From NCBI RefSeq assembly GCF_900090325.1, contig NZ_FMHW01000002.1, positions 3,907,001-3,971,000 of the forward strand: 64,000 bases of DNA, read 5' to 3'. How positions within the stretch are numbered: position 1 is the stretch's first letter; each line of letters opens with the position of its first letter. The translations under genes were made by a program, and so were the position numbers. Below, piece by piece: positions 17,486 to 36,826 of this stretch. Source of the DNA: Micromonospora pallida. GTDB lineage: Bacteria > Actinomycetota > Actinomycetes > Mycobacteriales > Micromonosporaceae. The notes under the pieces were generated by a model. That model saw only the letters and a list, made by a program, of their open reading frames with translations. It had not been told where the DNA came from and did not search any database.

Positions 17486-18019
17486 ATGAGCCAAGGAACC
17501 GACCAGGTCTTCGTGCACCCGACGGCCGACGTCGAGGAGGGCGCGCGGATCGGCGACGGCACCAAGGTCTGGCACCTGGCACACGTCCGGTCCACCGCGC
17601 AGATCGGCGGCGGTTGCGTGATCGGCCGCAACGTCTACGTCGACAGCAACGTGGTGATCGGGGACCTCTGCAAGGTCCAGAACAACGTCTCGGTGTACCA
17701 GGGCGTCACCCTGGAGGACGAGGTCTTCGTCGGCCCGTGCGCCGTCTTCACCAACGACTTCCGACCCCGGGCGCAGAACCCGGACTGGCAGATCACCCCG
17801 ACCCTGGTACGCCGGGGCGCGTCCATCGGCGCGAACGCCACCCTGGTCTGCGGGATCGAGGTCGGCTCGTACGCGATGATCGCCGCCGGTTCGGTGGTGA
17901 CCCGGGACGTCGCCCCCTACCAGTTGGTGGCCGGCAACCCGGCCCGGCCGAAGGGCTGGGTCAACGAGAAGGGCGAGGTGGTCTCCCGCGACCCGGAGAA
18001 CCCGCCCGCGCGCGGCTGA
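17486..18019 (+). CDS. Hexapeptide-repeat N-acetyltransferase (WbpD/WlbB-like)
   Basis: A 177-residue left-handed beta-helix acetyltransferase. Hexapeptide turns run through the protein (TADVEEGARIGDGT, CVIGRNVYVDSNVVIGD, GASIGANATLVCGIEVGS), with CKVQNNVSVYQG and the segment VFTNDFRPRAQ typical of WbpD/WlbB. These enzymes acetylate the 3-amino group of UDP-2-acetamido-3-amino-glucuronate using acetyl-CoA. The candidate 3-dehydrogenase, aminotransferase, 6-dehydrogenase and 2-epimerase for the same pathway lie within 19 kb. The preferred start is ATG 17486, though its GGAG is only three bases away. A hairpin follows the gene. Confidence 0.82.
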   Translation: MSQGTDQVFVHPTADVEEGARIGDGTKVWHLAHVRSTAQIGGGCVIGRNVYVDSNVVIGDLCKVQNNVSVYQGVTLEDEVFVGPCAVFTNDFRPRAQNPDWQITPTLVRRGASIGANATLVCGIEVGSYAMIAAGSVVTRDVAPYQLVAGNPARPKGWVNEKGEVVSRDPENPPARG

Positions 18020-18049
18020 GTCCGTCCCGGCTCCTGGCTCCGGCACGCC

Positions 18050-18098
18050 GACGGCGGCCGGTCGGTGGGGAATCCCCTCCGGCCGGCCGGCCGCCGTC
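18050..18098. terminator. Terminator between convergent genes
   Basis: GACGGCGGCCGG (18050-18061) pairs with CCGGCCGCCGTC (18087-18098). A smaller GGGGA/TCCCC stem lies inside the 25-nt loop. It separates the acetyltransferase from the convergent glycosyltransferase operon. Confidence 0.65.
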
Positions 18099-18104
18099 CG
18101 TCCG

Positions 18105-20297
18105 TCAGGCCCCGGTCTCCTCGAAGCCGGAAAGCGAGGTGGTGACGGTGATCTCCGGGTGCCGACGAGCGAGCTGCCAGCCGACCGTGAGGCCGTTGGT
18201 GCCGGCCACCACCACCCGGCGGGTCCGCGCCAGGTCCAGCTTCGGGAGCACGTGCTGCCGGACGATGCGCCACATCACCCGGGGCCGGACCAGCCGGTAG
18301 CCCTTCTCGAACCCCTTCTGGTGGATCAGCCCGGCCAGTTTCCCGTGCGCCCGCTGCGCGGTGAGCACACCCAGCTCCGGCCAGATCGCCTCCTGCCGCC
18401 GGGTCCGCTCCCGCACCGTGGCGAGCAGCTTCCCCGGGGCCCGGTAGACCAGCGTCTGCTCGGCCCGGAGCACCGGCCGCCGGGACTCCGCCACGTCGAT
18501 CGGGTGGATGCGCAGCCGGGGATCGCGGGCCGCCTCCCGCCAGAGGTTGGCGTCGTGGGTGATCACGTCCACCCCGTAGCCCGCCGCCGCGGCCCGCAGC
18601 GCGAGGTCCCGGGCCGGGAAGAACCGGGGCGCGTTGATCGCCACGAGGACCACCCGTTCGCCCCGGTCGGGCAGCTTGGCGGAGGTACCCGGACGCGCCG
18701 TTCCGGCGGCCGGCTCCGACCCGTCGTCGGGGACCGCCGCCGGCTCGGCGGCGGTCTCGCCGAGAAGTCGGGGCAGTACGGTGGCCGCACCGTGCCGCTC
18801 GCGCAGACCCGACCGGGCGGTGACCGGGTCCAACGCGACCAGTCGGGTGGTGAGGCGGCGGCGGCCCGCCAGCAGTTCCCGGGCGTCGGTGCCCTGCTCG
18901 ACCAGGGCGCCCGGCGTCCCGGCCAGCCGGTCTGCCGCCTCGGCGCTGGCCGGGTGCTCGGCGACCAGGACCGGCGTGCCGGTGGCCGCCGCGGTGACCA
19001 GCAACTCGCCGTGCCCCTCGCCCTGATTGGCGTGGACGAGCAGGTCGTAGTCGGCGAGCACGGTGGCGAGGTCGGGGGCCGGCGAGGTGGCCCGGAAGGT
19101 CACCCGGTCGCGGAGCTTCAACACGCCGATCCGGTCGCGTTGCCGGACCGAGGTGGCCGTCGCGTCCAGCAGGGTCAGGGTGGCCGTCGGGTCCTGAGCC
19201 GCCAGTTCCGCGAACGACTCCAGCACCACGGACTGGCCACGCACCTCCCACAGCGGGCCGACGTGCACCCAGCGGCGTAGTTCGGTCGGGGGCGTCGACC
19301 GGGTCGGTAGGGCGTCCACGTCGACCAGGGTCGGCACCACCCGGACCTTCGCCAGGTGCTCCGGGAAGTGCCCGGCGAGCGCGTCGGCCAGGTACTGGCT
19401 GACGCAGAGCACCTCGTCGGCCCTGGTCAGCACCTGCTCGTACTGGTCTCGGACGGCTGGCTGGGCCAGCGCGTGCGCGAGCAACGGCGAGTGTTCGACC
19501 ACGACCAGGCGGGCGTCCGGGCGGGCCAGGGCGGTCGCCACCGTACCGCCGAGGACGCCGCCGAAGGCGTACACCACCGGGGCCTCGATCCGGCCGCCCG
19601 GCAGGGCGGCCCGCGCCGCCGCCAGGTGCCCGGCGGCGCGCACCGGGTACTCCCGGGCCGCGACGAGCATCGGCACCGCGACCCGGGTCACCTCGGCCTC
19701 CGGTTCGTCGGTGACGGTGACCGGGTCGACCCGCCGGGCGAGTCGGTCCAGCGTCACCGTGACCAGCGGGGTGGCCGAGCTGCGCGGCGCCCGCCACTCG
19801 TCGGTGTGCAGCACCGACACCCGCCCGTACCGCTGGCCGAGGGCGATCGCCGACTCGCGGACGGCCGCCCCGGCGAGCGGGTCGCCGGGGGCCGGGTAGA
19901 AGGCGGTGACCACCGCGACGTCGGCGGGGGCTGGCCGCCGGTCCGGGTCGGGCGCGGGGGCGAACCGGACCGGCAGGTCCGGTCGGCGTCGCTGGGCGAA
20001 CCAGGCCGCCGGCACCGCCTCCGGGTCACCGGCGACGACCAGTCCAGCCCCGTCCAGTGGCCCCCCGGCGGATTGCAGCAGCTTGCGGGCTGCCTGCACC
20101 GCCTGCCGGGGGTCGGCGGCGACCCGGTGGACGGTCACCCCGTCGGGGAGGTCCACCGACCGCCACTCGGGCACACCGGCGAGCACCGCCACCACCGGGT
20201 GGCCGGCGGCCACCAGCCGGGCGAGCTGCCCGGCGGTGGCGGCCACCCGCGACCGACCGAGCGCGAGGTAGAGCACCGTACGGTCCGTCGTGGTCAC
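18105..20297 (-). CDS. Multidomain GT4 glycosyltransferase with extra N- and C-terminal domains
   Basis: A 730-residue protein. Residues 1-130 form a Rossmann-like segment opening VLYLALGRSRVAATAGQL. A GT4-type GT-B enzyme follows (about 135-560), opening VAVVTAFYPAPGDPLAG, with VVYAFGG, DEVLCVSQYLADAL and the donor-domain run DLLVHANQGEGHGELLVTAA. The last 150 residues (ERVVLVAINAPRFFPARDLALRA onward) are a further nucleotide-binding-like domain ending near SLSGFEETGA. The start GTG at 20297 overlaps the upstream stop as GTGA and has GGAGGG six bases away. It is the last gene of the minus-strand glycosyltransferase operon. The same building blocks occur as separate genes at 28373-30183. Confidence 0.75.
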   Translation of the reverse strand: MTTTDRTVLYLALGRSRVAATAGQLARLVAAGHPVVAVLAGVPEWRSVDLPDGVTVHRVAADPRQAVQAARKLLQSAGGPLDGAGLVVAGDPEAVPAAWFAQRRRPDLPVRFAPAPDPDRRPAPADVAVVTAFYPAPGDPLAGAAVRESAIALGQRYGRVSVLHTDEWRAPRSSATPLVTVTLDRLARRVDPVTVTDEPEAEVTRVAVPMLVAAREYPVRAAGHLAAARAALPGGRIEAPVVYAFGGVLGGTVATALARPDARLVVVEHSPLLAHALAQPAVRDQYEQVLTRADEVLCVSQYLADALAGHFPEHLAKVRVVPTLVDVDALPTRSTPPTELRRWVHVGPLWEVRGQSVVLESFAELAAQDPTATLTLLDATATSVRQRDRIGVLKLRDRVTFRATSPAPDLATVLADYDLLVHANQGEGHGELLVTAAATGTPVLVAEHPASAEAADRLAGTPGALVEQGTDARELLAGRRRLTTRLVALDPVTARSGLRERHGAATVLPRLLGETAAEPAAVPDDGSEPAAGTARPGTSAKLPDRGERVVLVAINAPRFFPARDLALRAAAAGYGVDVITHDANLWREAARDPRLRIHPIDVAESRRPVLRAEQTLVYRAPGKLLATVRERTRRQEAIWPELGVLTAQRAHGKLAGLIHQKGFEKGYRLVRPRVMWRIVRQHVLPKLDLARTRRVVVAGTNGLTVGWQLARRHPEITVTTSLSGFEETGA

Positions 20298-21634
20298 CGC
20301 GATCCCTCCGCGAGCCGGCGCAGCCGCGCCTCCCATGGGCTGAGTGTGGCGTCCCGGGTGTACGTCTGCGCGTGGCGCAGGGCCGCCTCGAAGGTCCCCC
20401 GGTCGAGGTCCCGGGCCGCCTTGGCCGCCTCGACGAACGAGTGCGCCACCGAGTCGGCGTCCAGCCGTGACCCGGCGAACCAGAGCGGGTAGCCGTCCAG
20501 CACCTCGGCGGCGGCGATCTCCGGTTCGTGGACGGAGACCACCGGCTTGCCCGAGGCCATGTACTCGAAGACCTTGCCCGAGGTGACGTACTTCGCCCCG
20601 GGGACGCAGAAGACCAGTGCGTCCGTCTGGGCGTACACGGCAGCGGCCTCGGCCTTGGCGAACGCGCCCCGGTAGCGGACGCCGGCCTCGCGCTCCTCCT
20701 CGATACGCCCCAACAGCGGTGGGACGCTGGCCGGGAAGAAGCCGAGATGGCCGTGGATGTTCAGTTCGGCGCCGGCGAGCAGCGGGTGCTGCCGGGCCCG
20801 CCGCCAGCCGTCGAAGAGGACGTCGAGCGGGAGGTACGAGGTGACCGTGCCCAGGTACGCGAAGCGCAGCGGGCGGTCGGGGTCGGCGACGGCGTACTCG
20901 GGAGTGCCGAGCAGTTCCGGCTCCCAGCCGTTCGGCACCACCTGCATCCGGTCGGCGGCGTACGGGTAGCGCTCGGCGTGCCAGCGGCGCATCCCGTCGT
21001 TGACGAAGACGATCTCCGCCGCGTCCCGCAGGACCTTCGCCTCCCACTTCATGGCCCGCCCGCCCTCGGGGACGGAGAGTTCCTCGGTGAACTGGTTGAT
21101 CGTCCAGGCGTCCCGGTAGTCGACCACGTACGGCACCCGGAAGAGCCGGCCCAGGGTGCGGGCCGCCGCGAACGACACGAACGGGTTGCCGGTCGCCAGG
21201 ACCAGGTCGATCCGGCGCTCGCGGTGCAGCCGCAGCGCGGTGCGGAACACGCCCGGCATCCAGCCCAGGTAGGGCTCCGGGAAGATCCGGTTCCGGACCG
21301 CCATGTGCACCTTGTCGGCGACGATCGGGAAGTTCGCCCGGAACGCGCCGAACTTGCTCAGGTCGGTCTCCCAGTGGCGCATGTCCATCGGCGGACGCTC
21401 GATGCGCACCCGGGGGTCCACGGTGGCTTCGAGCGTCTCGTCGACCGCGCCGCGGAGGTAGTGGGTGAAGAACTCGCGCGGCGCGGCCAGCGCCGTGACG
21501 TCCCAGCCGGCGGCGGCCAGGTGGTTCGCCGTGGCCCGGGCCCGGAAGACCCCGCTGGCCCGGCTGGGTGGGAAGTAGAAGGACAGGTAGAGGATCCGGG
21601 GGCGCGATCCCTCCGCGCCGGTTGCCGCGTCGAT
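20294..21634 (-). CDS. GT4 glycosyltransferase; start codon unclear (possible frameshift)
   Basis: The protein has a full GT4 architecture: RILYLSFYFPPSRASGVFR at the N-terminus, DLVLATGNPFVSFAAAR, VVDYRDAW, VVPNGWEPE, and GKVFEYMASGKPVVSVHEPE in the donor domain. The first in-frame ATG/GTG/TTG is the GTG at 21421, which would cut off about 60 conserved residues. Upstream, the frame is open to a stop near 21715 without any standard start. An ATC at 21634 lies ten bases after AAGGAG and is used here. Alternatively GTG 21645, in the next frame, was the start and one base was lost in the G-run near 21598-21602. It sits in an operon, overlapping the next gene by GTGA. Confidence 0.7.
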   Translation of the reverse strand: MDAATGAEGSRPRILYLSFYFPPSRASGVFRARATANHLAAAGWDVTALAAPREFFTHYLRGAVDETLEATVDPRVRIERPPMDMRHWETDLSKFGAFRANFPIVADKVHMAVRNRIFPEPYLGWMPGVFRTALRLHRERRIDLVLATGNPFVSFAAARTLGRLFRVPYVVDYRDAWTINQFTEELSVPEGGRAMKWEAKVLRDAAEIVFVNDGMRRWHAERYPYAADRMQVVPNGWEPELLGTPEYAVADPDRPLRFAYLGTVTSYLPLDVLFDGWRRARQHPLLAGAELNIHGHLGFFPASVPPLLGRIEEEREAGVRYRGAFAKAEAAAVYAQTDALVFCVPGAKYVTSGKVFEYMASGKPVVSVHEPEIAAAEVLDGYPLWFAGSRLDADSVAHSFVEAAKAARDLDRGTFEAALRHAQTYTRDATLSPWEARLRRLAEGSR

Positions 21635-23055: not shown

Positions 23056-24612
23056 CTACTTTCCTCCCAGTGGAAGCCTGCGCCGCAGACGGGCCATCAC
23101 CCGTCGTGGCGTCACAGGTGCTACGGCGACGATCAGTTGACCCTTGTGGTTGCTGGTGGCGGTGAGGATGTGCAGGCGCGCGCCGCGGCGTACCACGACG
23201 CGCTGGGGCACCGCCCGCCGGGGACCGCGCAGGGGGGCCGTCCCCGTGGTACCGAACGCGTCGATCCGCGCCTGGATGAGTCGAAGTTTACCGCCGGGTG
23301 CCAGGTCGGTCAGCAGACCCGCCAGCGGGACGCGGGCCCGGATCGTGGTGCCAGTGATGTCCGGGACCAGCTCGGTGGCCTCCGCCGGCACGTCGCCGGC
23401 CAGGAGTTTCAACGCGGATGCCAGATGCGGCAGGTCGGGACGGGGACTGCGGGCGGTCACCACGAGCGCGCGGTTGCCCTCGAAGGTGACCGAGACCGTG
23501 TCGAGCCGGGCGATCCAGTCCGCGGCGCTGCCGGTGATCTCGAACCAGTCGTCGGCGAGGCCGAGACGGGGGTCGCGGAAGCCCGGGTAGTCGGCGTACC
23601 AGCGGTTGTTCTCGACCACCGTCGGCGGGGTGTCCTGGTCGGCGTCCACCCGGATCACGGCAAGCAGGTCGTCCAGTTCGCCGTGCCAGGCGAGGGCGAG
23701 CCGGACCCGGGTCTCGATGCCGAGCTGGTCCCGGATCGGGTCGGTGAGGTACCGCTCGGCCAGTCCCCGTACCCCGGCCTGGACGCTGGCCTGGGTCGGC
23801 CGATCCAGCGCCAGGAAGTCGTTCTCCAGTAGCCGGGCGACCTCCCAGTCGAAGTGGCGCAGCAGCACCGCGTCCCGCCGGGGACCGGCCTCGATCAGTC
23901 CGGCCACGAAATCCATGATCGATTCGGCGCAGTGCAGTCGTTCCAGGTGCCGGCTCTTGTAGGTGATGTTGTGCGCGTTGAACCGGCGCACCGCGAAGTA
24001 GTAGTCGTAGTCGGCGAGGACGGAGACCCGCCGCGCCCGGAAGCACGCCTCGATGGTGAACGGTTGGTCGCTGCCGACCGGCATGTCCTCCGGGTAGCGC
24101 AGCTTGTGCCGATCGATCAGGTCCCGCCGGAACAGCTTGGTGTTCGACAGCGAGTACGGCAGCGGAGAGGTGAACAGGTCCACCTCGGGCTGCGTCGACT
24201 CGTAGATCGCCTGGTGGATGTAGCGGGTGTTCACCCCGACCATCCGGCCCAGCACCACGTCGGAGTCGTACCGGTCGGCGGCGGTGACCAGCCGCTCCAG
24301 CGCCTCCGGGCCGAGGTAGTCGTCCGACCCGATGAAGAAGACGTACCGGCCGGTGGCGATCTCCAGCGCCCGGTTGCTCGGCTTCGCCGGGCCGCCGGAG
24401 TTCGCCTGGTGGATCACCTTGACCGTGCCCGGATAGGTCCGGGCGAACCGATCCAACTCCCGGCCGCTGCCGTCGGTGGAGCCGTCGTCCACCGCGACGA
24501 CCTCCAGCCGGTCGAGCCCGATGGTCTGCTCCAACACGGAGGTCAGGCACCGGGTCAGGTAGGGCATGGTGTTGTAGACGGCGGTGATGACGGTGACGTC
24601 GGGGACGGTCAC
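23056..24612 (-). CDS. GT2 glycosyltransferase resembling wall teichoic acid TarS
   Basis: A 518-residue protein. The GT-A domain (1-220) shows VTVITAVYNTMPYL, VVAVDDGSTDGS, NSGGPAKPSNRALEIATG and FFIGSDDYLG, where the DD pair binds metal and nucleotide sugar. The following stretch (SDVVLGRMVGVN, LPYSLSNTKLFRRDLID, GSDQPFTIEACFRARRVSVL) matches the order of conserved blocks in S. aureus TarS/TarP, recalled from knowledge rather than aligned. TarS adds GlcNAc to polyribitol phosphate. The C-terminal half (about 330-518) is beta-rich and may aid polymer binding or trimerisation. It overlaps the preceding gene by GTGA. Confidence 0.8.
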   Translation of the reverse strand: MTVPDVTVITAVYNTMPYLTRCLTSVLEQTIGLDRLEVVAVDDGSTDGSGRELDRFARTYPGTVKVIHQANSGGPAKPSNRALEIATGRYVFFIGSDDYLGPEALERLVTAADRYDSDVVLGRMVGVNTRYIHQAIYESTQPEVDLFTSPLPYSLSNTKLFRRDLIDRHKLRYPEDMPVGSDQPFTIEACFRARRVSVLADYDYYFAVRRFNAHNITYKSRHLERLHCAESIMDFVAGLIEAGPRRDAVLLRHFDWEVARLLENDFLALDRPTQASVQAGVRGLAERYLTDPIRDQLGIETRVRLALAWHGELDDLLAVIRVDADQDTPPTVVENNRWYADYPGFRDPRLGLADDWFEITGSAADWIARLDTVSVTFEGNRALVVTARSPRPDLPHLASALKLLAGDVPAEATELVPDITGTTIRARVPLAGLLTDLAPGGKLRLIQARIDAFGTTGTAPLRGPRRAVPQRVVVRRGARLHILTATSNHKGQLIVAVAPVTPRRVMARLRRRLPLGGK

Positions 24613-26249
24613 GTGCCGGCCCCCACCGCCGGGCGCGCGGCCTCCGAGCCGGCCGGGTCACTCCCGGCGGCCGGACCCGGCGAACCGGACGGTGTCGGTC
24701 CCGGCCGGTCGGGCAGCAGGCGCCGGTAGACACCGTCCAGCACCTCGGCCTGCGCCTCCCAGGTCCAACTCTCCAGCAGGCCCGGCCGGTCGTACGCGGC
24801 CCGGTAGCGCTCCGGGTCGCCGAGCACCGACCGGACGGCCCGCACGTAGTCGGCCACGTCCTCGGCGCGGAACACCTCACCCTGGCCGGTGGAGCGCACC
24901 GTCCCGGCCATCGTCTTCACGTCGCTGACCACCAGCGGCAGCCGCGCATGCGAGTACTCGAAGAACTTGGTGATCAGCGCGATCTCGTGGTTGGGCCAGT
25001 GGTGGATCGGGATCACCCCGGCGTCGGCGCCGGAGAGGAAGGGCACCACCTGCCAGTGCGCCACGTACGGCAGCGCGTGCACCCGGTCGGCGACACCGAG
25101 CCGCGCCGCACGGGCCAGCACCCCGGTCACGTACGGGCCGGTGGGCTTGTTGACCACCAGCGCGACGTGCACGCCGGGCAACTGCGGCAGCGCGTCGACC
25201 ATGATGTCCAGGCCGCGTTGCTTCGCCGCCGCCCCGCTGTAGACCAGCAGCGGGGTGTCGGGGCCGACGCCGCAGAGGGCGCGCAGGTCGGGCGCGGGCG
25301 CGTCGGGAGTCAGCTCACCGTGGTCGGCTGCCGGCGCGTTGAGCACCACGTCCGGCATGCTGCTCAGCCCGTGCTCACGGCGCAGCAGCTCGGCCAGGCC
25401 GTCGGAGACGGTCATCACCGCGTCGGCGTACGGGGCGTACTCCCGCTCGTGGGCCCGGTGGGCGGGCAGCCAGCGGGCGTTGTCCTGCCACGGCTTCAGG
25501 CCGGGCAGGAACTCGTGCGCGTCCCAGACGATCTTGATCTCCCGGCCCCGGGCGGCCGCGCGGATCTTGGCACGGGCGGCGACACCGAGCATCCGGAAGT
25601 CGTTGGCGTGGATCAGGTCGGGGGCCAACTCGTCGAGCACCGGCCCGTAGGCCAGCTCGTAGTCCCAGAGGCTCGGCTCCAGCCGGCGCCACGCGCCGTC
25701 GCCCTTCACCGCCTGCCAGAACTTCGTGTACGCCAGATCCCACGGATTGCGGAACCGACGACGCTGACGGGCCTGGGTGAGCATCCAGTACCGCCCGGAC
25801 ACCCAGGTCCGGGTGAGCTTCGCGGCAGTCTGCTCGGCCCGCAACAGCCGCTTGCGCAGGGCGAGCCGGGCGGTCGCCGGGTCGGCCACGGACAGCTGAG
25901 CGGCCCGAACGGCGAGGTCGGCCTGCCAGGCCTTGACGCTCTGCTGCCGGTGCGCGGCGATCCCGCTCGGCGGGTACGCCAACGGCCAACGCAGCCAGGC
26001 CCGACGGAACTCGTGGCGGCGGCGGGCCAGCGGGTCGGGCATGGCCAGCAGTCGCACCTCGGCGTCACCGAGGCGCCAGGACTGGGCCACACCCCCCGGG
26101 GAACGGCCCAGCAGGACGACCTCCCAGCCGGCGTCCGCAGCCGAGCGCGCGGTCTTCTGCACCCGGGAGTCACCGTTGACACCGTTGTCCACCAACATGA
26201 CGACGCGTCCGCGGAATCCGGCCGCCGCGGCCGTACCGTCAGTTCCCAT
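24609..26249 (-). CDS. GT4 glycosyltransferase, paralogue 1 of 3
   Basis: A 546-residue GT-B enzyme. The N-terminus GRVVMLVDNGVNGDSRVQK and a long insert of helical, basic sequence (about 95-190) precede PDLIHANDFRML and IVWDAHEFLPG. The donor domain contains PLLVYSGAAAKQRGLDIMV, GVIPIHHWPNHEIALITKFF and VSDVKTMAGTVR. Two closely similar genes occur at 26507 and 30246. The C-terminal 35 residues are Pro/Gly/Ala-rich and probably disordered. Met at 26249 is preferred over an in-frame ATG ten codons upstream because the paralogues start near there. Sugar and acceptor are unknown. Confidence 0.85.
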   Translation of the reverse strand: MGTDGTAAAAGFRGRVVMLVDNGVNGDSRVQKTARSAADAGWEVVLLGRSPGGVAQSWRLGDAEVRLLAMPDPLARRRHEFRRAWLRWPLAYPPSGIAAHRQQSVKAWQADLAVRAAQLSVADPATARLALRKRLLRAEQTAAKLTRTWVSGRYWMLTQARQRRRFRNPWDLAYTKFWQAVKGDGAWRRLEPSLWDYELAYGPVLDELAPDLIHANDFRMLGVAARAKIRAAARGREIKIVWDAHEFLPGLKPWQDNARWLPAHRAHEREYAPYADAVMTVSDGLAELLRREHGLSSMPDVVLNAPAADHGELTPDAPAPDLRALCGVGPDTPLLVYSGAAAKQRGLDIMVDALPQLPGVHVALVVNKPTGPYVTGVLARAARLGVADRVHALPYVAHWQVVPFLSGADAGVIPIHHWPNHEIALITKFFEYSHARLPLVVSDVKTMAGTVRSTGQGEVFRAEDVADYVRAVRSVLGDPERYRAAYDRPGLLESWTWEAQAEVLDGVYRRLLPDRPGPTPSGSPGPAAGSDPAGSEAARPAVGAGT

Positions 26250-28156: not shown

Positions 28157-28372
28157 GACGCTCCTACCTCTTTCCACCGGCCGGAGCGGCCGGGTCGTTG
28201 TGGGTCTACCGAATCCGGTACCGGTCAACTGGTCCGCTCGGCCCATGGTTCCAGCTTGCCGGCGGCGGTGACCACCGCAACCGGAGTGCCGCCGGACCAG
28301 CCGGCGACCGAGGGGACCAGGACACGATCCCCCGCGTACCGGTCGGCATGCGTCCGGCGCTGCGGGTCGAGA

Positions 28373-28927: not shown

Positions 28928-28929
28928 GG

Positions 28930-30183
28930 TCACTCCATCGAGGGGGCGGTCGCGAACGAGGTCGCGGCGGCGGACCCGGCGTCGTCGGTCTCCGGGAACC
29001 ACGTCCGCGCGTGGGCCTGCCCGACCGCGTCGTACCCGTAGCGGGCCACCAGGACGGAGCGGGCGTGGGCCAGGTCCAGTCCCTGCGGGAACCGGTCGCG
29101 CAGCCGCCGGTAGCCGTCGACGATGGTGTCCGGGTCGTCGGTCACGTCGATCAGCCCGCCGACGGCATCCTCGATGCCGGCGAGCGTCTCCTCCGGGCCG
29201 CCGCACCGGGTCACCAGGACCGGGACACCCGCCGCGATGGCCTCCACCACCGTCATGCCGAAGGTCTCCAGCCGGCTCGGGTGGATCAGCAGATCGTGCT
29301 CGCGCATCAGCTCGAGCGCCTGGTCCGGCAGGACCGAGCCGGCGAAGCTCACCGCGTCCGTCAGGCCCAGCGCAGCGGCCCGCGAGGTGAGCTTCGACCG
29401 CAGCCGCCCGTCACCCACGAAGGTCAGGCTGAGCGACGGATCCTCCGCCCGGCACCGCGCGAAGGCCTCCAGCAGCAGGGCCACGCCCTTGCGCTCACTG
29501 AGCGAACCGACGTAGAGCCAGCGGCGCAGCGCGGTGACCGGCTGCTCGCGGGGAGCGGTGAACGAGATCGGATTGGGCATGAAGCCGATCTTGTGGGCGT
29601 GATGCGGAAACGCCTCGACCAGGACGGACCGCAGCACCTCGCCGACCGCGAAGAACCCGGTCGCCCGGCTGATCACCTCGTCGTACATGGCCCGGGAGTC
29701 CGGCTCGGCGAGCACGGTCGGCAGGAAGGTCGCGTGTTCGGTCACGTAGACCCGGGCGTCGGGGCGGGCGTTCTCGAGTGCCGTCCACCCGCCGCGCAGG
29801 CCGACGTGGGCATGCACCACCGGGGCGGCGATCGGCTTCCCGCGCAGCACGGTCCGCAACGCCTCGGCGTTCCGCCGGGCGAACTGGGCGAAGGACAAAC
29901 CGACCCGCATCGGCACGGGCACGTACCACAGTCCGGCTCCGGCGACCGTGCTGGTCTCGGTGACCGCCCGGGTGAGGAGCTTCCGGTGGGCCCGCATGAT
30001 TGCCTGGTCCTGCGACTCGGGAACCCGTGCGCCCCAGCCGTCGACGTGGTAGACGGTGGCGCGGTCCCAGGCCGACACGGTCGCCTCGACCATCGCCTGG
30101 ACGAAGGCACCGCCGAACGGCACCTGCCTGGTCGGGTACCAGGGCGTGACGATGGCCACGTCCCGGTCAGCGGGAACACCCAC
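28930..30183 (-). CDS. GT4 glycosyltransferase
   Basis: A 417-residue GT-B enzyme. It opens VAIVTPWYPTRQVPFGGAFV, like the central GT domain of the 730-residue protein. It continues with VVHAHVGLRGG, YVTEHATFLPT and the donor-domain signature LLIHPSRLETFGMTVVEAIA, which contains the E-x7-E motif of retaining GT4 enzymes. GTG 30183 has AAGGAG seven bases upstream. It overlaps or abuts the accessory gene at 28927 and follows GT4 paralogue 3 by 62 bp, so the three are probably co-transcribed. Donor and acceptor are unknown. Confidence 0.87.
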   Translation of the reverse strand: MGVPADRDVAIVTPWYPTRQVPFGGAFVQAMVEATVSAWDRATVYHVDGWGARVPESQDQAIMRAHRKLLTRAVTETSTVAGAGLWYVPVPMRVGLSFAQFARRNAEALRTVLRGKPIAAPVVHAHVGLRGGWTALENARPDARVYVTEHATFLPTVLAEPDSRAMYDEVISRATGFFAVGEVLRSVLVEAFPHHAHKIGFMPNPISFTAPREQPVTALRRWLYVGSLSERKGVALLLEAFARCRAEDPSLSLTFVGDGRLRSKLTSRAAALGLTDAVSFAGSVLPDQALELMREHDLLIHPSRLETFGMTVVEAIAAGVPVLVTRCGGPEETLAGIEDAVGGLIDVTDDPDTIVDGYRRLRDRFPQGLDLAHARSVLVARYGYDAVGQAHARTWFPETDDAGSAAATSFATAPSME

Positions 30184-30245: not shown

Positions 30246-31898
30246 TCAGGGCTGTGCGACCGGCACGACGATGCCGGGGCCAGCGGCCGGATCGGGCTGC
30301 CCGGAACCGGTGTCCACGGCCCGGTCGACGTCGTGCGGGGCGGGGGCCGCCGGGGCGTGGGGCAGCAGCCGGGCATACAACTGGTCCAGGGTCGCCGCCT
30401 GCGCCTCCCAGCTCCACTGCTCGAGCAGGCCCGGCCGGTCGTACGCGGCACGGTACTTGTCCGGATCGGCCAGCACCAACTTCGCGGCACGGAGGAAGTC
30501 GGCCAGGTCCTTCGCCCGGAAGACCTCGCCCTGGCCCGTCGACCGCACCATGTCGGCCATCGTCTTCACGTCGCTGACGATCAGCGGCAACCGGGCATGC
30601 GAGTACTCGAAGAACTTGTTGCTCAACGCGATCTCGTGGTTCGGCAGGTGGTGCAGCGGGCTCACCGCCGCGTCGGCGCTGGCCAGCACCCGGGACACCT
30701 GCCAGTGCGGCACGTACGGCAGCAGGTGGACCCGGTCGGCCACGCCGAGGGCGACCGCCTGCTCCCGGAGCTTTGCGGCGGCCCGGCTGACGATCCCGCT
30801 CGGCGCCACCGAGAGCATCGCCAGGTGCACGTCCGGCAGATGGGTAAGGGCCTCGACGACGAGGTCCACGCCGCGTACCACGGTGATCCCGCCCGAGTAG
30901 GCCAGCAGCGGGGTGTCGGGGCCGAGCCCGCACAGCGCCCGCAGATCCCGCACCGGAGTGTCGTCGTCGGCAGCCTCGGCCGTGGAGAGCACGGGGGAGT
31001 TCATCACGACGGTGGGCTTCTCGGCCAACCGGTGGTCGGTCCGCAGCAGGTCGGCCAGCGCGTCGGAGACGGTGACCACCGCGTCGGCCTGCCGGATGTA
31101 CTCGCGCTCGTAGGCGACCTGCGCCTCAAGCCAGCCGGGCGTCCGGGGCAGCAGGCCGGGCACGTACTCGTGGGCGTCGAAGACGAACCGTACGTCGCGG
31201 CCCCGGGCCCGCGCCCGGGCGGCTGCCCGCGCGCCGACGCCGACCATCTTGAAGTCGTGCGCGTGGATGATGTCGGGCTTCAGGTTGTCGATGACCTTGC
31301 CGAAGGCGAGTTCCCATTCCCACAGCGAGGGGTCCAGCCGGCGCCAGCTACGCGCGCCCATCGTCGCCGTCCAGTACCGGACGGTCATGCGGTTCAGCCA
31401 CTGATCGGGCTGGACGCGCGCCTCCCGCAGCTTCCGGGTCTGCCCGGCCCGGAAACGCACCCAGCGGCTGGCCAGCGCGAGCCCGGCCCGGGGGACGATC
31501 AGTCGCGGGAGGCCCCGACCGCCGGCCTTGCCGCGCTCGGCCCGCTGCTGGGCGATCCGGGCCACGATGTCGGCGCGCCAGGCCTTCATGAGTTGCTGCC
31601 GGCGGCCGACGTGCCGGCCGTCGGCGTAGGCGAACGGCCGGCGCAGCGAGCCGCCGCGCCGGAACGCGGGCTCCGCCAGCTGTTTGGCGACCGGGACGAG
31701 CCGCACCTCGGCGTCGCCGAGCCGCCACGACTCGACCTCCGAGTCACCCTTCATCCCGATCAGGATGACGTCCCAGCCGGCTTCCGCGGCCGAGCGGGCG
31801 GACTTCTGCACCCGGGAGTCACCGTGCACGCCGTTGTCGACCACCATGACGACCCGGCCCCGAGTGGGGCGCGCCGCGACAACGCCATTGAGATCCAT
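30246..31898 (-). CDS. GT4 glycosyltransferase, paralogue 3 of 3
   Basis: A 550-residue member of the tandem family: GRVVMVVDNGVHGDSRVQK, the basic helical insert (about 85-190), PDIIHAHDFKMVG, FVFDAHEYVPG and NHEIALSNKFFEYSHARLP. It is the most divergent of the three in the insert and in the position of ITVVRGVDLVVEAL. It is the first gene of the leftward glycosyltransferase operon; ATG 31898 has only a weak SD. The operon promoter would lie in the 400-bp divergent region shared with the epimerase gene. It likely builds part of the surface polymer repeat or linkage unit. Confidence 0.85.
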   Translation of the reverse strand: MDLNGVVAARPTRGRVVMVVDNGVHGDSRVQKSARSAAEAGWDVILIGMKGDSEVESWRLGDAEVRLVPVAKQLAEPAFRRGGSLRRPFAYADGRHVGRRQQLMKAWRADIVARIAQQRAERGKAGGRGLPRLIVPRAGLALASRWVRFRAGQTRKLREARVQPDQWLNRMTVRYWTATMGARSWRRLDPSLWEWELAFGKVIDNLKPDIIHAHDFKMVGVGARAAARARARGRDVRFVFDAHEYVPGLLPRTPGWLEAQVAYEREYIRQADAVVTVSDALADLLRTDHRLAEKPTVVMNSPVLSTAEAADDDTPVRDLRALCGLGPDTPLLAYSGGITVVRGVDLVVEALTHLPDVHLAMLSVAPSGIVSRAAAKLREQAVALGVADRVHLLPYVPHWQVSRVLASADAAVSPLHHLPNHEIALSNKFFEYSHARLPLIVSDVKTMADMVRSTGQGEVFRAKDLADFLRAAKLVLADPDKYRAAYDRPGLLEQWSWEAQAATLDQLYARLLPHAPAAPAPHDVDRAVDTGSGQPDPAAGPGIVVPVAQP

Positions 31899-32304
31899 AG
31901 TTACTGTCTCTACCTCTCCCCGCCGGCACCGGTCTCGCCGAGAACCCCGGCGAGTGTACGGCAACACATCGGCCGAACATGCCGCCCCGTATGTCGGCCG
32001 CTTCCGGCCGGCTCGCCGGTCCCGCCTCCCCGGGTCGACCAGGGACGATTCCCCGCAGGCGTGCGGGGCGGTCGGCCCGCCGGCGAGGCCCGGCCCCGCC
32101 GCGTACCCACAGGCCGCAACCGGACACACATGACGTATGGTGTGGGCACCAGGCGTGGCGGCTGGGGCGTCAATCTCATGCGATGCAAGGCCCCCTGGCG
32201 GAGATCCGCGGGCCCGCTGGCGGAGATCTGCAAGCTGGCGGAGATCTGCGGAGCCCCTGGCGGAGATCCCAGTCGTGACCCACCGACAATCCGGGAGACA
32301 GACC
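31899..32304. promoter_or_regulatory. Divergent regulatory region of the glycopolymer locus
   Basis: No gene is supported here. Leftward, TACACT (31958-31953 on the minus strand) is a possible -10 for the glycosyltransferase operon. Rightward, TATGGT at 32136-32141 is a possible -10 for the epimerase and lies inside an imperfect CACACAT/ATGGTGTG dyad (32125-32144). That start would give a leader of about 155 nt containing four direct repeats. -35 elements are not clear. Confidence 0.4.
32195..32268 (+). repeat. Four direct repeats in the epimerase leader
   Basis: CTGGCGGAGATC occurs exactly at 32195-32206, 32217-32228, 32235-32246 and 32257-32268, with start-to-start distances of 22, 18 and 22 bp. 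Each copy carries an SD-like GGAG. The array ends 36 bp before the GTG of the epimerase gene. Confidence 0.9.
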
Positions 32305-33408
32305 GTGAAGGTAGTCAGCGTCGTCGGCGCGCGTCCGCAGTTGGTCAAGCTCGCGCCGATCGCGGCAGCCTTCGCCCGTACCGATCACCAGCACGTGATC
32401 GTGCATACCGGGCAGCACTACGACGTCAACCTCTCCGATGTCTTCTTCTCCGGCCTGGGCATCCCCGATCCGGACGTCCACCTGGGCATCGGCTCCGGCA
32501 GCCACGGCGCGCAGACCGGGCGGATCCTCGAGGCCATCGACCCGGTACTGGCTCGGGAGTCCCCCGACTGGGTGCTGGTCTACGGTGACACCAACTCGAC
32601 CCTTGCCGGAGCCGTCTCGGCGGTGAAGCAGCACCTCAAGGTGGCACATCTGGAGGCGGGGCTGCGCTCGTTCAACCGCCGGATGCCGGAGGAGCACAAC
32701 CGGGTGCTCACCGACCACGCCGCCGACCTGCTGCTGGCCCCGACCGAGGAGGCGCTGCGGCACCTGGCCAACGAGGGTCTGGCCGAGCGGTCGGTCCTCA
32801 GCGGCGATGTCATGGTCGATGTCTGTCTGCGGGTCCGGGACAGCGTCCTCGCCGGCGAGCACCCCCAGCCGGTGCTGCCCGCCGGGGTCGACCCGAACGA
32901 GCCCTACCTGCTCGCCACCCTGCACCGCGCCGAGAACACCGACGACCCCGCGCGACTGGCGGCGCTGGTCGAGGCACTGGCCGGGCTGCCCGTCCCGGTC
33001 GCGCTGCTGGCCCACCCGCGACTGGTCGCCAAGGCACAGGAGCAGGGCCTGAAACTCGCCCAGGGCGCACTGCACGTGGGTGACCCGGTCGGGTACGCCG
33101 CGATGATCGCCGCCGTCCTCGGCTCGGTGGGCGTGGTGACCGACTCCGGCGGGTTGCAGAAGGAGGCGTACCTCCTGGCGCGTCCGTGCACCACGCTGCG
33201 GTCGGAGACCGAGTGGCTGGAGACCATGGCGGGCGACTGGAACCGGCTCGTGCCGGATCCCGCGCTGCTCGACGCGGACGAGTGGGTGCGCATCGCCACC
33301 CGGCCGTCCCCCGACGCGCCGCAGGGTGAGCCGTTCGGTGACGGACGGGCTGCCGATCGCGTGGTCGAGTTCCTCGCCGAGCGGGCTGGGCCGGCCGCGT
33401 CGGCATGA
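32305..33408 (+). CDS. UDP-N-acetylglucosamine 2-epimerase, non-hydrolysing (WecB/WbpI type)
   Basis: A 367-residue GT-B fold epimerase. Key segments are VVGARPQLVKLAPIA, YGDTNSTLAGA, HLEAGLRSFNRRMPEEHNR, TLHRAENTD and DSGGLQKEAYLL, which hold the catalytic acidic and His residues and the UDP-binding loop of WecB. It inverts C2 of a UDP-2-acetamido sugar through a 2-acetamidoglucal intermediate. In this locus it may act as WbpI, converting UDP-GlcNAc3NAcA to UDP-ManNAc3NAcA. GTG 32305 has GGGAG about eight bases upstream. It is divergent from the glycosyltransferase operon and follows an unusual repeat-bearing leader. Confidence 0.92.
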   Translation: MKVVSVVGARPQLVKLAPIAAAFARTDHQHVIVHTGQHYDVNLSDVFFSGLGIPDPDVHLGIGSGSHGAQTGRILEAIDPVLARESPDWVLVYGDTNSTLAGAVSAVKQHLKVAHLEAGLRSFNRRMPEEHNRVLTDHAADLLLAPTEEALRHLANEGLAERSVLSGDVMVDVCLRVRDSVLAGEHPQPVLPAGVDPNEPYLLATLHRAENTDDPARLAALVEALAGLPVPVALLAHPRLVAKAQEQGLKLAQGALHVGDPVGYAAMIAAVLGSVGVVTDSGGLQKEAYLLARPCTTLRSETEWLETMAGDWNRLVPDPALLDADEWVRIATRPSPDAPQGEPFGDGRAADRVVEFLAERAGPAASA

Positions 33409-33471
33409 CCGCCGGCGGGCGTTGCGGGCCGCCGCCCGTGTCACCACCTCACCCGGGCTCGACCGGCACGC

Positions 33472-34569
33472 TCAGGCGTCGAGGAACTCCTCGAAGACGC
33501 GGGCGGTACGCCGTCCGTCGTGGTACTCCCGGGCGTACTCCACCGACTCGGCGCCGATCCGGGCCGCCCGCCTCGGGTCGGCGACGAGCGCCGTCAGCTC
33601 GTCGCGCAGGGTCTGCGGGGTGGCGTTGACGATCGGCGGCGGTTCGTCCATGAGCGTGACCACCTCGTCGTGCAGGTAGGCGAGCACCGGCCGGCCGGCC
33701 GCCATCGCCTCGACCGCGAACGTGCCGTAACTGCCCAACGCGAACTGGTCGAGCACCACGTCGGCGCTCCGGACCAGATCACGCAGCTCGGTCCAGGGCA
33801 TCTTCTCGGCCAACCTCAGGTCGATCACACCTTCGTCGTGCAGGCTGGTCAGTACCGGCAGGATCTGCTCGGTGCCCTTCGTCCAGCGTTTCGACGGGGC
33901 GTGCAGCACCACCGGTCGTCGTCGCCGCAGTCCGGCGCGCCGACGCAGTACCGGTTCGTCGCTGTGCCAGGCCGACACGTTCACCACCACCGGTGCCCAC
34001 GTCGCGGACGGCAGGTCCAGCAGCAGGTCCGGGGTGGTGACGAAGACCGGCAACCCGCTCGTCTCGGCCACCCGGCGGTTACGTTCGGCGCGGGCGGTCA
34101 TCTTGTCCCGCACGTCGTCCGCCAGGGTGTGGAAGGGTGAGTGCGCGGTGCGCTCCCGGTGCCGTACCGGATGGCGCACCTCGCTGCCGTGTGCCAGCAG
34201 CGCGACCTTCACCCCGGCCTGCCGGAGCGCGGGCAGGTCCGCCCCGATGTGATGGCCGTTGAGCAGCCCGAACACGGGCAGGAACGCGTCGGCGACCAGA
34301 TGGGTGTAGCGCCCGATCACCCGCTGGAGCTGCTCGATCTGCAGGTCCAGGTCACCGAGCCGCTCCGGTTCGATGTGGATGTCGGTCGGGAAGGCGAAGC
34401 GGGCGCCCGTCCGCCGGGTCGTCACCTCGGCGGAGACATCGGCCCGGTGCCGGCAGATCGCCTCGGCGAAGGCCGCGGCCTGCCCGGCGTAGTTGGCCGG
34501 GCCGAGACCGAGCCGGATCGGGGTCTCGCCCAACGGCCGCCAGCCGGACGCCGGTGTCGTGGTCTCCAT
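33472..34569 (-). CDS. GT-B glycosyltransferase of the glycopolymer locus
   Basis: A 365-residue protein. The start RLGLGPANYAGQAAAFAEAI is typical of a GT-B acceptor domain that lacks a DXD motif. The region VVLHAPSKRWTKGTEQIL and the block VVLDQFALGSYGTFAVEAMA with a later PVLAYL form the nucleotide-sugar domain. It probably transfers a sugar on the cytoplasmic face to a lipid-linked intermediate. It is transcribed leftward, separated from the upstream WbpB/WbpE-like operon by a strong hairpin, so it may have its own promoter in the 110-bp gap. Substrates cannot be predicted. Confidence 0.7.
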   Translation of the reverse strand: METTTPASGWRPLGETPIRLGLGPANYAGQAAAFAEAICRHRADVSAEVTTRRTGARFAFPTDIHIEPERLGDLDLQIEQLQRVIGRYTHLVADAFLPVFGLLNGHHIGADLPALRQAGVKVALLAHGSEVRHPVRHRERTAHSPFHTLADDVRDKMTARAERNRRVAETSGLPVFVTTPDLLLDLPSATWAPVVVNVSAWHSDEPVLRRRAGLRRRRPVVLHAPSKRWTKGTEQILPVLTSLHDEGVIDLRLAEKMPWTELRDLVRSADVVLDQFALGSYGTFAVEAMAAGRPVLAYLHDEVVTLMDEPPPIVNATPQTLRDELTALVADPRRAARIGAESVEYAREYHDGRRTARVFEEFLDA

Positions 34570-34628
34570 CTGTGGCTGCCCTCCTCCAGGTGACGGACGT
34601 TGGGCGGGCCGCGCGTGCTCGGAGCGTT

Positions 34629-34673
34629 GCGTACCCGGTCACCGCCGGACGCGCCGACGGTGACCGGGTACGC
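34629..34673. terminator. Terminator hairpin
   Basis: Perfect 16-bp arms (GCGTACCCGGTCACCG at 34629-34644 and its complement at 34658-34673) enclose a 13-nt loop just after the Gfo/Idh stop codon on the minus strand. Confidence 0.75.
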
Positions 34674-34679
34674 GTTCCG

Positions 34680-35720
34680 TCAGGCGGGGACTTCCAGCCC
34701 CGTGGTGCTCCGGCCCGGCACCGTGACGGTGCTGCCGCCCGCCGCCGACTCGAGCAGTGCGGCGGCGACCTGGACCGTCCGGAGGCCCTGGCGCAACGTC
34801 ACGATGTCGCTTTCCTTGCCCTCGACCGCGTCGCGGAAACGCTCGTGCTCGACCAGAAGCGGCTCGCGCTTCGGGATCGCGTACCGGACCATGTCGCCCT
34901 CGGCCACCCCACGGAAGGCGCGCAGCGCCTCCCACTCGGTGTCGATCGCGGCGTTGGCGTAGAAGGTGAGGTCGGCGGTGAGGGTGTCGGCGACGAAGCA
35001 GCCCTTGTCGCCGGTGATGACGGTGGACCGCTCCTTGAGCGGGCTCAGCCAGTTGACCAGGTGGTTGACCATCGTGCCGTCGGCCAGCTGGCCGACCACG
35101 GCGACCATGTCCTCGTGCAGCCGGCCGCTACGGGAGACCGTCCGGGCCGCGACCGAGGAGTAGTCCTGGCCGGTCACCCAGGCGGTCAGGTCGATGTCGT
35201 GGGTGGCCAGGTCCATCACCACGCCGACATCGGCGATCCGGTGCGGGAACGGGCCCTGCCGTCGGGTGACGACCTGGAACACCTCGCCCAGTTCGCCGGC
35301 CTCCAACCGGATCCGGAGGTTCTGTAGGGCCGGGTTGTAGCGCTCGATGTGCCCGACGCCGGCCACCAGCCCGGCCGTCTCGAAGGCCTCGACCAGCCGG
35401 CTGGCCGCCTCGACGGACTGGGCAAGCGGCTTCTCGATCAGCGCGCAGACGCCGTTGCGGGCCAACTCCATGCCGACCTGCTCGTGCAGGGCGGTCGGGC
35501 AGGCGACCACGGCGTAGTCGAGACCGAGGGCAAGCAGGTCCTCCAGCGCCGGGAAGACCGGGGCGCGGAGCACGCCGTTCGGGTCGCCGGCGGGGTCGAC
35601 GATGCCGACCAGTTCGACGCCGTCCAGTCCGGAGAGGACCCGGCCGTGGTTGCGGCCCATCGCGCCGAGGCCGATCAGACCGGCCCGCAGCTTCCGTCCG
35701 CCGCTGGTTCGCTCGCTCAT
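34680..35720 (-). CDS. Gfo/Idh/MocA oxidoreductase (probable UDP-sugar 3-dehydrogenase)
   Basis: A 346-residue protein. The Rossmann start LRAGLIGLGAMGRNHGRVL binds NAD(P), EKPLAQS carries the conserved Lys of the EKP motif, and GVVMDLATHDIDL provides the H-D substrate pair. In the WbpA-B-D-E-I pathway a family member (WbpB/WlbA) oxidises C3 of the UDP-uronate to a ketone for transamination. The start overlaps the stop of the aminotransferase gene as ATGA, indicating coupled synthesis of the two consecutive enzymes. Substrate is inferred from context; Gfo/Idh enzymes are diverse. Confidence 0.8.
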   Translation of the reverse strand: MSERTSGGRKLRAGLIGLGAMGRNHGRVLSGLDGVELVGIVDPAGDPNGVLRAPVFPALEDLLALGLDYAVVACPTALHEQVGMELARNGVCALIEKPLAQSVEAASRLVEAFETAGLVAGVGHIERYNPALQNLRIRLEAGELGEVFQVVTRRQGPFPHRIADVGVVMDLATHDIDLTAWVTGQDYSSVAARTVSRSGRLHEDMVAVVGQLADGTMVNHLVNWLSPLKERSTVITGDKGCFVADTLTADLTFYANAAIDTEWEALRAFRGVAEGDMVRYAIPKREPLLVEHERFRDAVEGKESDIVTLRQGLRTVQVAAALLESAAGGSTVTVPGRSTTGLEVPA

Positions 35721-36826
35721 GCCGCACCCCCGGCGATGTTCGCGCCCTCGGCGATCCGCTCCAGGTCGGCCTGGCTCAGCGACGGGTGTACCGGCAGCGA
35801 GACGACCTCGGCGGCGGCCCGCTCGGTCTCCGGCAGGTGCCAGTCGCCCGGCTTACCCTCGGCGGTCAGGTACGGCTTGAGCCGGTGGATCGGGGTCGGG
35901 TAGTAGACGGCGTTGCCGATGCCCAGCTCGGTGAGGCGCTGCTGGGCGGCGTCCCGGTCACCGGTCACCCGGACCGTGTACTGGTGGTAGACGTGCCGCA
36001 CGTTGTCGGCGACCGGCGGGGTCACCATCGAGGTGATCTTGGAGTCGAGGAACTTGGCGTTGGCCCGCCGCTGCTCGGTCCAGTCGGCGAGCTGCCGGAG
36101 CTGCACCCGCCCGATGGCCGCGGCGACGTCGGTCATCCGCATGTTCGCGCCGACGATCTCGTTGGCGTACCGCTGCTCCATGCCCTGGTTGCGCAGCAGG
36201 CGCAGGGTTCGGGCCAGCTCGGCGTCGGCGGTGGTGACCATGCCGCCCTCGAGGGAGTGCATGTTCTTCGTCGGGTAGAAGCTGAAGCAGCCGGCGGTAC
36301 CGAAGGCGCCCACCGGGTGGCCGCCCAGCGCCGCGCCGTGGGCCTGGGCGGCGTCCTCGATCACGGCCAGCTTGTGCCGCTCGGCGATCTGCATGATCCG
36401 GTCCATCGCGGCGGGGTGCCCGTACAGATGCACGGGCATGATCGCGACGGTGCGCGAGGTGACCGCCGCGGCGACCGCCTCCGGGTCGACGCAGAAGCTG
36501 CCCGGCTCGATGTCGACGAAGACCGGCTCCGCGCCGACCAGCCGGATGCTGTTCGCGCTGGCAGCGAAGGAAAAGGAGGGGACGATGACCTCGTCACCGG
36601 GGCCGAAGCCGAGCGCCATCAGGGTGAGCTGGAGGGCCGACGTGCCGGAGTTCAGCGCGACGCAGTGCCGGCCGGCGACCAGCTCGGCGAACTCCTCCTC
36701 GAAGGCGGCCACCTCGGGCCCCTGCACCACGCGTCCGCTGCGCAGCACCCGCACCGCCGCGTCGATCTCGGCCTCACCGATCACCGGGCGGGCTGGTGGG
36801 ATGAATTCTGCGTTCAGCCCAGACAT
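35717..36826 (-). CDS. DegT/DnrJ/EryC1 PLP aminotransferase (WbpE-like)
   Basis: A 369-residue sugar aminotransferase. The PLP Lys is predicted at Lys187 in FYPTKNMHSLEGG; other markers are LNSGTSALQLTLMALG, IEDAAQAHGA and NMRMTDVAAAIGRVQL. Such enzymes use glutamate to convert a keto-sugar nucleotide to an amino sugar; here the 3-keto UDP-uronate made by the next gene is the likely substrate. AGGAGG six bases before ATG 36826 sets the start and excludes a 39-residue upstream extension. It is the first gene of a two-gene leftward operon. Confidence 0.88.
   Translation of the reverse strand: MSGLNAEFIPPARPVIGEAEIDAAVRVLRSGRVVQGPEVAAFEEEFAELVAGRHCVALNSGTSALQLTLMALGFGPGDEVIVPSFSFAASANSIRLVGAEPVFVDIEPGSFCVDPEAVAAAVTSRTVAIMPVHLYGHPAAMDRIMQIAERHKLAVIEDAAQAHGAALGGHPVGAFGTAGCFSFYPTKNMHSLEGGMVTTADAELARTLRLLRNQGMEQRYANEIVGANMRMTDVAAAIGRVQLRQLADWTEQRRANAKFLDSKITSMVTPPVADNVRHVYHQYTVRVTGDRDAAQQRLTELGIGNAVYYPTPIHRLKPYLTAEGKPGDWHLPETERAAAEVVSLPVHPSLSQADLERIAEGANIAGGAA

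Follow-up and report, generated by a model that had tools for sequence, protein, structure and literature searches.

A UDP-ManNAc3NAcA-type gene set beside teichoic acid genes in Micromonospora pallida, probable counterpart of the Streptomyces utr locus

Results

Five pathway genes in a chromosomal island

We analysed a 64-kb stretch of the 7.76-Mb genome of Micromonospora pallida, called the window throughout (G000:C2:3907001-3971000; G-codes designate genomes in our comparison sets, G000 being the own genome, and L-codes stretches from them), in which GC content is 66–77% per 2 kb. A preliminary description had placed there members of the five enzyme families of the Wbp/Wlb pathway, which is known from Pseudomonas and Bordetella and makes UDP-ManNAc3NAcA, the UDP-activated diacetamido mannuronic acid. 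Open frames, together with scores against protein families and nearest relatives, confirmed all five at, or a few bases from, the positions it gave. They are as follows, with the equivalent Wbp/Wlb proteins and the Streptomyces Utr proteins discussed below.

17477..18019, plus strand: hexapeptide N-acetyltransferase (role of WbpD/WlbB, UtrJ); PF00132
21767..23050, minus strand: nucleotide-sugar 6-dehydrogenase (role of WbpA, UtrD); TIGR03026, 280 bits, above cut-off
32305..33408, plus strand (open frame from 32137): non-hydrolysing UDP-GlcNAc3NAcA 2-epimerase (role of WbpI, UtrH); PF02350
34680..35720, minus strand: UDP-sugar 3-dehydrogenase of the Gfo/Idh/MocA family, GnnA/archaeal type by sequence (role of WbpB, UtrB); PF01408, PF02894
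35717..36826, minus strand (open frame starts at 36943): pyridoxal phosphate-dependent 3-aminotransferase, DegT/DnrJ/EryC1 family (role of WbpE, UtrA); PF01041, 411 bits

These genes occupy four strand blocks that alternate plus, minus, plus, minus: the N-acetyltransferase, the 6-dehydrogenase with glycosyltransferases, the 2-epimerase, and the 3-dehydrogenase with the aminotransferase. To their right lie an ATP-binding cassette (ABC) export pair, a TarI-like protein fused to a short-chain dehydrogenase/reductase (SDR) and a TagF-like protein. The alternation predicts at least four transcription units, which fits the four transcripts described earlier as far as strand order goes, the transcripts themselves not having been observed. 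The island occupies a conserved chromosomal place, and genes on both of its flanks recur in the genus. A two-component gene on the left flank was recognized in seven of the 10 genus loci read beyond the N-acetyltransferase (G006, G011, G021, G032, G043, G053, and G059, not G036, G041, and G058), and the gyrase A/B-like (or topoisomerase IV-like) pair on the right flank (49123-54008, minus strand) is also found in G032 and G053, both of the loci read that far.

Similarity of the five enzymes to characterized relatives

Two of the enzymes bear out the proposed comparison with Wbp proteins. The epimerase scores 351 bits against 8sxv, a UDP-GlcNAc3NAcA 2-epimerase of proven activity, vs. 141 bits against 1vgv, which we take to be Escherichia coli WecB, and its TIGR00236 wecB score of 254 bits also lies above the cut-off of 210. 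The N-acetyltransferase has 3mqg, presumably WlbB, as its best solved relative (171 bits, the next scoring 123). Among solved relatives of the aminotransferase, WbpE (3nyu, 240 bits) comes third, level with QdtB (3frk), after 7b0d (314 bits) and 2oga (269 bits). The 6-dehydrogenase stays under the cut-offs of the listed equivalogs, including WecC, TviB, and archaeal ManNAcA dehydrogenase, and falls short of the UDP-ManNAc dehydrogenase equivalogs NF008286 (180 of 459 bits) and NF040825 (251 of 750 bits); its nearest solved chain is 4r16 (215 bits), named a hypothetical ManNAcA dehydrogenase.

For the 3-dehydrogenase, sequence does not support the comparison. In sequence searches it scores 85 bits against GnnA vs. 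68 bits against WlbA and 30 bits against 3o9z, a chain named wbpB, while profile scores are 135 bits for GnnA (7bvj) vs. 97 bits for WlbA (3q2k), with six other chains ranking between them. Against NF040723, the archaeal UDP-GlcNAc 3-dehydrogenase, it reaches 200 bits, under the cut-off of 450. Judged by sequence, the enzyme is nearer to GnnA and archaeal UDP-GlcNAc 3-dehydrogenases than to WlbA, for which reason the order of steps may depart from that of the Pseudomonas pathway. Comparison of folds was not decisive, since WlbA and GnnA tie and many Gfo/Idh/MocA chains are equally close or closer. Relatives of the 3-dehydrogenase with 90–91% identity are found in M. sicca and M. chaiyaphumensis.

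The gene set is co-inherited and recurs across actinobacterial families

In a set of 101 genomes (the own genome, 60 of the genus, and 40 of the order), the identical 27, own included, hold orthologs of the 3-dehydrogenase (at least 87% identity), the aminotransferase (at least 82%), and the 6-dehydrogenase (at least 90%). The N-acetyltransferase (at least 81%) is present in all 27 and in six further genomes, while the epimerase, at 74% identity or more, is confined within this set to 19 of the 27. Eight island genomes lack it. Five of these (G021, G022, G026, G043, and G053) are without any TIGR00236 match, G021, G022, and G043 being single-contig assemblies, while G041, G058, and G059 have other TIGR00236 members, which could supply an epimerase. 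The gene set is therefore co-inherited more than chance, and the epimerase is an optional part of it; co-occurrence counts in this set and in the phylum sample take no account of relatedness or linkage.

The phylum sample comprised 298 genomes, own included, and was searched at E cut-offs of 1e-60 for the 3-dehydrogenase, 1e-100 for the 6-dehydrogenase, and 1e-90 for the epimerase. The two dehydrogenases were found in 25 and 22 genomes, respectively, and together in 21. The epimerase was found in 21, in 13 with the 3-dehydrogenase and in eight without it; all nine genomes (own included) in which it reaches at least 60% identity have both dehydrogenases.

Finally, a scan of named genomes gave at least 590 relatives of the 3-dehydrogenase, and we analysed the loci of the best 80 at identity cut-offs of 50% (aminotransferase), 40% (N-acetyltransferase), 55% (6-dehydrogenase), and 50% (epimerase). 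Seventy-eight carry actinobacterial names (Streptomyces, Actinomadura, Glycomyces, Kribbella, Cutibacterium, Arthrobacter, Microbacterium, and others), one is from Chloroflexi and one from Woesearchaeota. Among these best 80, the aminotransferase gene is directly upstream of the 3-dehydrogenase gene in all 78 loci with sufficient upstream DNA, 21 loci have the complete five-gene set, and 25 have four genes without the epimerase. The most frequent gene order (15/80) is N-acetyltransferase, aminotransferase, 3-dehydrogenase, 6-dehydrogenase. Relatives of the TarS-like glycosyltransferase encoded at 23056 occur in 22 of the 80, directly upstream of the 6-dehydrogenase gene in 18 of the 21 loci holding both, and the TarS linker domain was found in all four relatives tested. 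These findings show that the gene set recurs across many actinobacterial families, though in a minority of the genomes sampled (3-dehydrogenase, 25/298).

Glycosyltransferase, teichoic acid, and export genes of the island

The pathway genes are accompanied by the following genes, which belong to glycosyltransferase families GT2 and GT4 or resemble teichoic acid (Tag/Tar) and export proteins.

18105..20291, minus strand: GT4 glycosyltransferase; Pfam GT4 domains
20294..21421, minus strand: GT4 glycosyltransferase; PF13579/PF13439
23056..24612, minus strand: TarS-like GT2 glycosyltransferase (role of UtrC); PF00535 and PF22181 TarS linker
24609..26279, minus strand: GT4, one of three paralogs; 62% to a glycosyltransferase of a Streptomyces globisporus locus
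26507..28246, minus strand: GT4 paralog; domain and paralog comparison
28930..30183, minus strand: GT4 glycosyltransferase; domain scan
30246..32270, minus strand (open frame to 32348): GT4 paralog; 58% to a glycosyltransferase of a Streptomyces microflavus locus
33472..34569, minus strand: glycosyltransferase-like protein; no Pfam match, weak NCBIfam glycosyltransferase matches, 59% to part of an ORF of a Streptomyces microflavus locus
37731..38627, plus strand: ABC-2 export permease (TagG/Wzm-like); PF01061, NF050109 70 bits, under cut-off
38584..39438, plus strand: export ATPase (TagH-like); NF010066 TagH 172 bits, under the cut-off of 320
39500..41050, plus strand: TarI-like cytidylyltransferase fused to an SDR reductase; PF01128 and PF00106
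41096..42817, plus strand: polyol-phosphate polymerase (TagF/TarL-like); PF04464 32 bits, cut-off 22

The best solved relatives of the TarS-like GT2 are 5tze (145 bits) and 6h1j (105 bits), which we take to be TarS and TarP, respectively. The TarI-SDR fusion, whose best solved relative is the ribitol-5-phosphate cytidylyltransferase 6xhp (119 bits), probably makes CDP-ribitol. The three GT4 paralogs (24609, 26507, and 30246) share 52–65% identity with one another (24609 vs. 26507, 65%; vs. 30246, 53%) and 54–62% with glycosyltransferases of two Streptomyces loci; they lie within one strand block and likely arose by duplication. Opposite the first GT4 gene, the plus-strand frames 18159-19280 and 19356-20492 were taken as spurious, since they have no Pfam match, give Arg/Gly/Pro-rich translations, and look like high-GC artefacts.

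Across the other 26 islands from Micromonospora, identity is 82–94% for the core enzymes (where the stretch read contains them) and 77–80% for the epimerase, while glycosyltransferases are variable or missing, the pattern expected if the precursor is constant and the surface polymer varies. A relative of the TarS-like GT2 is present in 24 of the 26. Glycosyltransferase content was dropped as a predictor of epimerase presence because, in these 26 genomes, no island glycosyltransferase differed significantly between islands with and without the epimerase (smallest p 0.13), some islands being partly read.

Two further observations concern the surroundings. An acyltransferase-3 membrane protein is encoded near, but outside, the island (45347-46819) and is a possible O-acetyltransferase for the polymer. 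Left of the window, at G000:C2:3885120-3886112 (L033:17994-19115), is a second TIGR00236 epimerase gene, with a DegT aminotransferase gene about 13 kb further left; together these are perhaps another surface polysaccharide cluster. This epimerase, the sole other TIGR00236 match of the own genome, in which an ordinary MnaA was not found, is CapG-like (7ya2, 354 bits) and was rejected as a pathway enzyme.

Relation to the utr locus of Streptomyces

A Cell 2025 paper (PMC13274773) describes the genes utrA-J of S. griseus as a teichuronic acid–wall teichoic acid (TUA-WTA) locus, encoding, in order, an aminotransferase, an oxidase, the TarS-like UtrC, a UDP-sugar dehydrogenase, a 4-epimerase, the TarM-like UtrF, UtrG, the 2-epimerase UtrH, the O-acetyltransferase UtrI, and the N-acetyltransferase UtrJ; TarIJ and TagF are nearby, and ribosomal proteins L21 and L27 are the chromosomal anchor. 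There, the wall polymer repeat of S. griseus is given as ->3)GalNAc-alpha(1->4)-ManNAc3NAcA-beta(1->, in a teichuronic-like chain whose reducing-end GlcNAc3NAcA sits on ribitol phosphate of the wall teichoic acid, while S. antibioticus, without utrE, utrF, and utrH, has a chain of beta-1,4 GlcNAc3NAcA (PMC13274773). These chains are documented by nuclear magnetic resonance (NMR) in two Streptomyces species and by genetics, the five enzyme roles having been assigned by modelling to a Pseudomonas-like route, and the text and reference list indicate that teichuronic acids were known in actinomycetes earlier (PMC13274773).

The window holds homologs of utrA, utrB, utrC, utrD, and utrH in one locus (35717, 34680, 23056, 21767, and 32305; role names from PMC13274773), with ribitol teichoic acid genes of the TarIJ and TagF type nearby (39500-41050 and 41096-42817). 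By best tblastn segment, identity to Streptomyces-named loci is 67–77% for 35717, 72–77% for 34680, 47–51% for 23056, 75–86% for 21767, 70–74% for 32305 where found, and 45–48% for the N-acetyltransferase. The utr locus as described and the window thus share the five pathway roles, an accompanying TarS-like glycosyltransferase, TarIJ and TagF nearby, and an optional 2-epimerase; in the Streptomyces loci used for comparison, the TarS-like gene adjoins the UDP-sugar dehydrogenase gene, as it does in the window. Unlike the utr locus, the window has its pathway genes in four strand blocks around glycosyltransferase genes, three GT4s that are paralogs, and an N-acetyltransferase of a clade other than that of other Streptomyces loci; the ORFs scanned in the island include no separate 4-epimerase. 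Micromonospora genomes lacking the epimerase fit the S. antibioticus case of GlcNAc3NAcA, although S. antibioticus also lacks utrE and utrF.

With the Wbp/Wlb pathway the window shares the five reaction types, an epimerase of the UDP-GlcNAc3NAcA type, an acetyltransferase nearest to 3mqg, and an aminotransferase whose third-ranking solved relative is WbpE; unlike that pathway, it has a 3-dehydrogenase closer to GnnA and archaeal enzymes and would serve a wall polymer instead of an O-antigen. With the GnnA and archaeal UDP-GlcNAc 3-dehydrogenase systems it shares the 3-dehydrogenase type by sequence, to which it adds a co-inherited 6-dehydrogenase. For teichuronic acids of actinomycetes, the earlier work cited is reportedly Tul'skaya 2011.

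Discussion

The pathway is complete and real but not unprecedented. That it leads to UDP-ManNAc3NAcA and stands beside a teichoic-type apparatus, as proposed in the preliminary description, is supported by the relatives of its enzymes, by co-inheritance, and by the TarS-like, TarIJ, TagF-like, and TagGH-like genes. The further claim that such use would be unusual must be given up, since it has already been described in Streptomyces (PMC13274773) and the gene set occurs in many actinobacterial families. We consider it very probable that the island represents, in Micromonospora, the actinobacterial TUA-WTA (utr) locus, making a UDP-ManNAc3NAcA-derived chain on ribitol teichoic acid. What is observed here is gene content, family, synteny, and co-inheritance, while substrates, linkage, and polymer are suggested by analogy with the Streptomyces work. 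The 6-dehydrogenase, 3-dehydrogenase, aminotransferase, and N-acetyltransferase would convert UDP-GlcNAc to UDP-GlcNAc3NAcA, and the 2-epimerase would convert this to UDP-ManNAc3NAcA. The TarS-like GT2 probably attaches the first diacetamido uronic acid to ribitol phosphate, the GT4 proteins would lengthen the chain, TarIJ and the TagF-like protein would provide the ribitol-phosphate backbone, and the ABC pair would export the polymer.

Several points weigh against this assignment. Among the scanned ORFs of the island, no separate gene for the utrE role (4-epimerase) or the utrI role (O-acetyltransferase) was seen. The polymer repeat is therefore probably not identical with the one in S. griseus, and GalNAc may be absent from it or supplied from elsewhere. 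The N-acetyltransferase is outside the clade of the usual operon enzyme: in a tree of 75 rows it falls in a Micromonosporaceae clade of 13 (support 100/98), while those of other actinobacterial loci form a separate clade of 59 (support 98/95), some long branches leaving deep joins unsure; against 3mqg it scores 171 bits vs. 115 bits for the single operon enzyme tested. At the thresholds used, 34 of the best 80 of at least 590 named loci are without one or both of the 6-dehydrogenase and the N-acetyltransferase, partly through contig or flank ends. The Streptomyces comparison was with other Streptomyces-named loci and not with the S. griseus proteins themselves, the word Micromonospora is unmatched in the main text of PMC13274773, and a limited literature search, which does not establish absence from print, found no wall chemistry for this organism.

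In the WecB/WecC alternative, named beforehand as what would refute the proposal, UDP-ManNAcA is the product of the epimerase and 6-dehydrogenase, and the other three enzymes make an unrelated 3-acetamido sugar. The TIGR00236 score of the epimerase and the kinship of the 6-dehydrogenase to 4r16 favour it. We nevertheless rejected it as very unlikely, because the epimerase is far closer to the proven UDP-GlcNAc3NAcA 2-epimerase than to 1vgv and the 6-dehydrogenase is under the WecC equivalog cut-off. Moreover, eight of the 27 genus genomes keep the 6-dehydrogenase without this epimerase, and in the five with no TIGR00236 match an enzyme of that kind therefore cannot be its necessary source of UDP-ManNAc; in the phylum, 21 of 22 genomes with the 6-dehydrogenase also have the 3-dehydrogenase. 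It is likewise improbable that the epimerase has another use, such as UDP-ManNAc for a linkage unit, with the uronic acid staying gluco. The failure to find an ordinary MnaA in the own genome and the eight islands without the epimerase speak for such a use, but its best match is an enzyme shown to act on UDP-GlcNAc3NAcA, and phylum genomes with a copy of at least 60% identity always have both dehydrogenases (at the looser 1e-90 level, eight of 21 are without the 3-dehydrogenase).

A different order of steps towards the same product comes close to an even chance without reaching it. Here, in place of the Pseudomonas order with 6-oxidation first, a GnnA-type 3-dehydrogenase would act on UDP-GlcNAc, amination and acetylation would give UDP-GlcNAc3NAc, and 6-oxidation and 2-epimerization would follow. 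The kinship of the 3-dehydrogenase to NF040723 and GnnA points this way, as do G015 and G062, which carry a 3-dehydrogenase/aminotransferase pair (59–64%) without a 6-dehydrogenase match at 1e-40, and G077, which has only a 34% match. As proof of order, genomes lacking the 6-dehydrogenase are weakened by the finding that all seven checked hold other NDP-sugar dehydrogenases above the family cut-off; in G202, a fragment of such a gene adjoins the 3-dehydrogenase gene on the same contig, and the miss may reflect an assembly break.

The island also seems to exchange sugar modules. At the same island position, G006 (L048) and G011 (L047) have the N-acetyltransferase (84%) but another 3-dehydrogenase (28%) and aminotransferase (46–48%), their matches to the window 6-dehydrogenase being only 34–35% and located elsewhere. 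A compact module of adjacent 3-dehydrogenase (30%), aminotransferase (48%), and N-acetyltransferase (72%) genes was seen in G002 (L043:9831-12525). We offer, as a tentative proposal that we would sooner expect to fail than to hold, that Actinomycetota use the archaeal/GnnA order, with 3-amination of UDP-GlcNAc first and late 6-oxidation, and that the Micromonospora island is a cassette. It would switch between ManNAc3NAcA and GlcNAc3NAcA by epimerase gain or loss; exchange of the 3-dehydrogenase/aminotransferase pair with the N-acetyltransferase kept, of which the islands of G006 and G011 give a hint, would lead to other 3-acetamido sugars. Surface-binding toxins or phages would be a plausible source of selection.

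If the island is the Micromonospora form of the utr locus, the hybrid teichuronic/teichoic wall polymers described very recently in Streptomyces would be a class that Micromonospora shares. What remains of most interest is the absence of the epimerase within one genus, an acetyltransferase of another clade, and the order of steps, which the GnnA-type 3-dehydrogenase turns into a directly testable question for a Gram-positive pathway. The 27 islands, 19 with and eight without the 2-epimerase, form a natural series in which the wall sugar would be predictable from the genes and testable by NMR.

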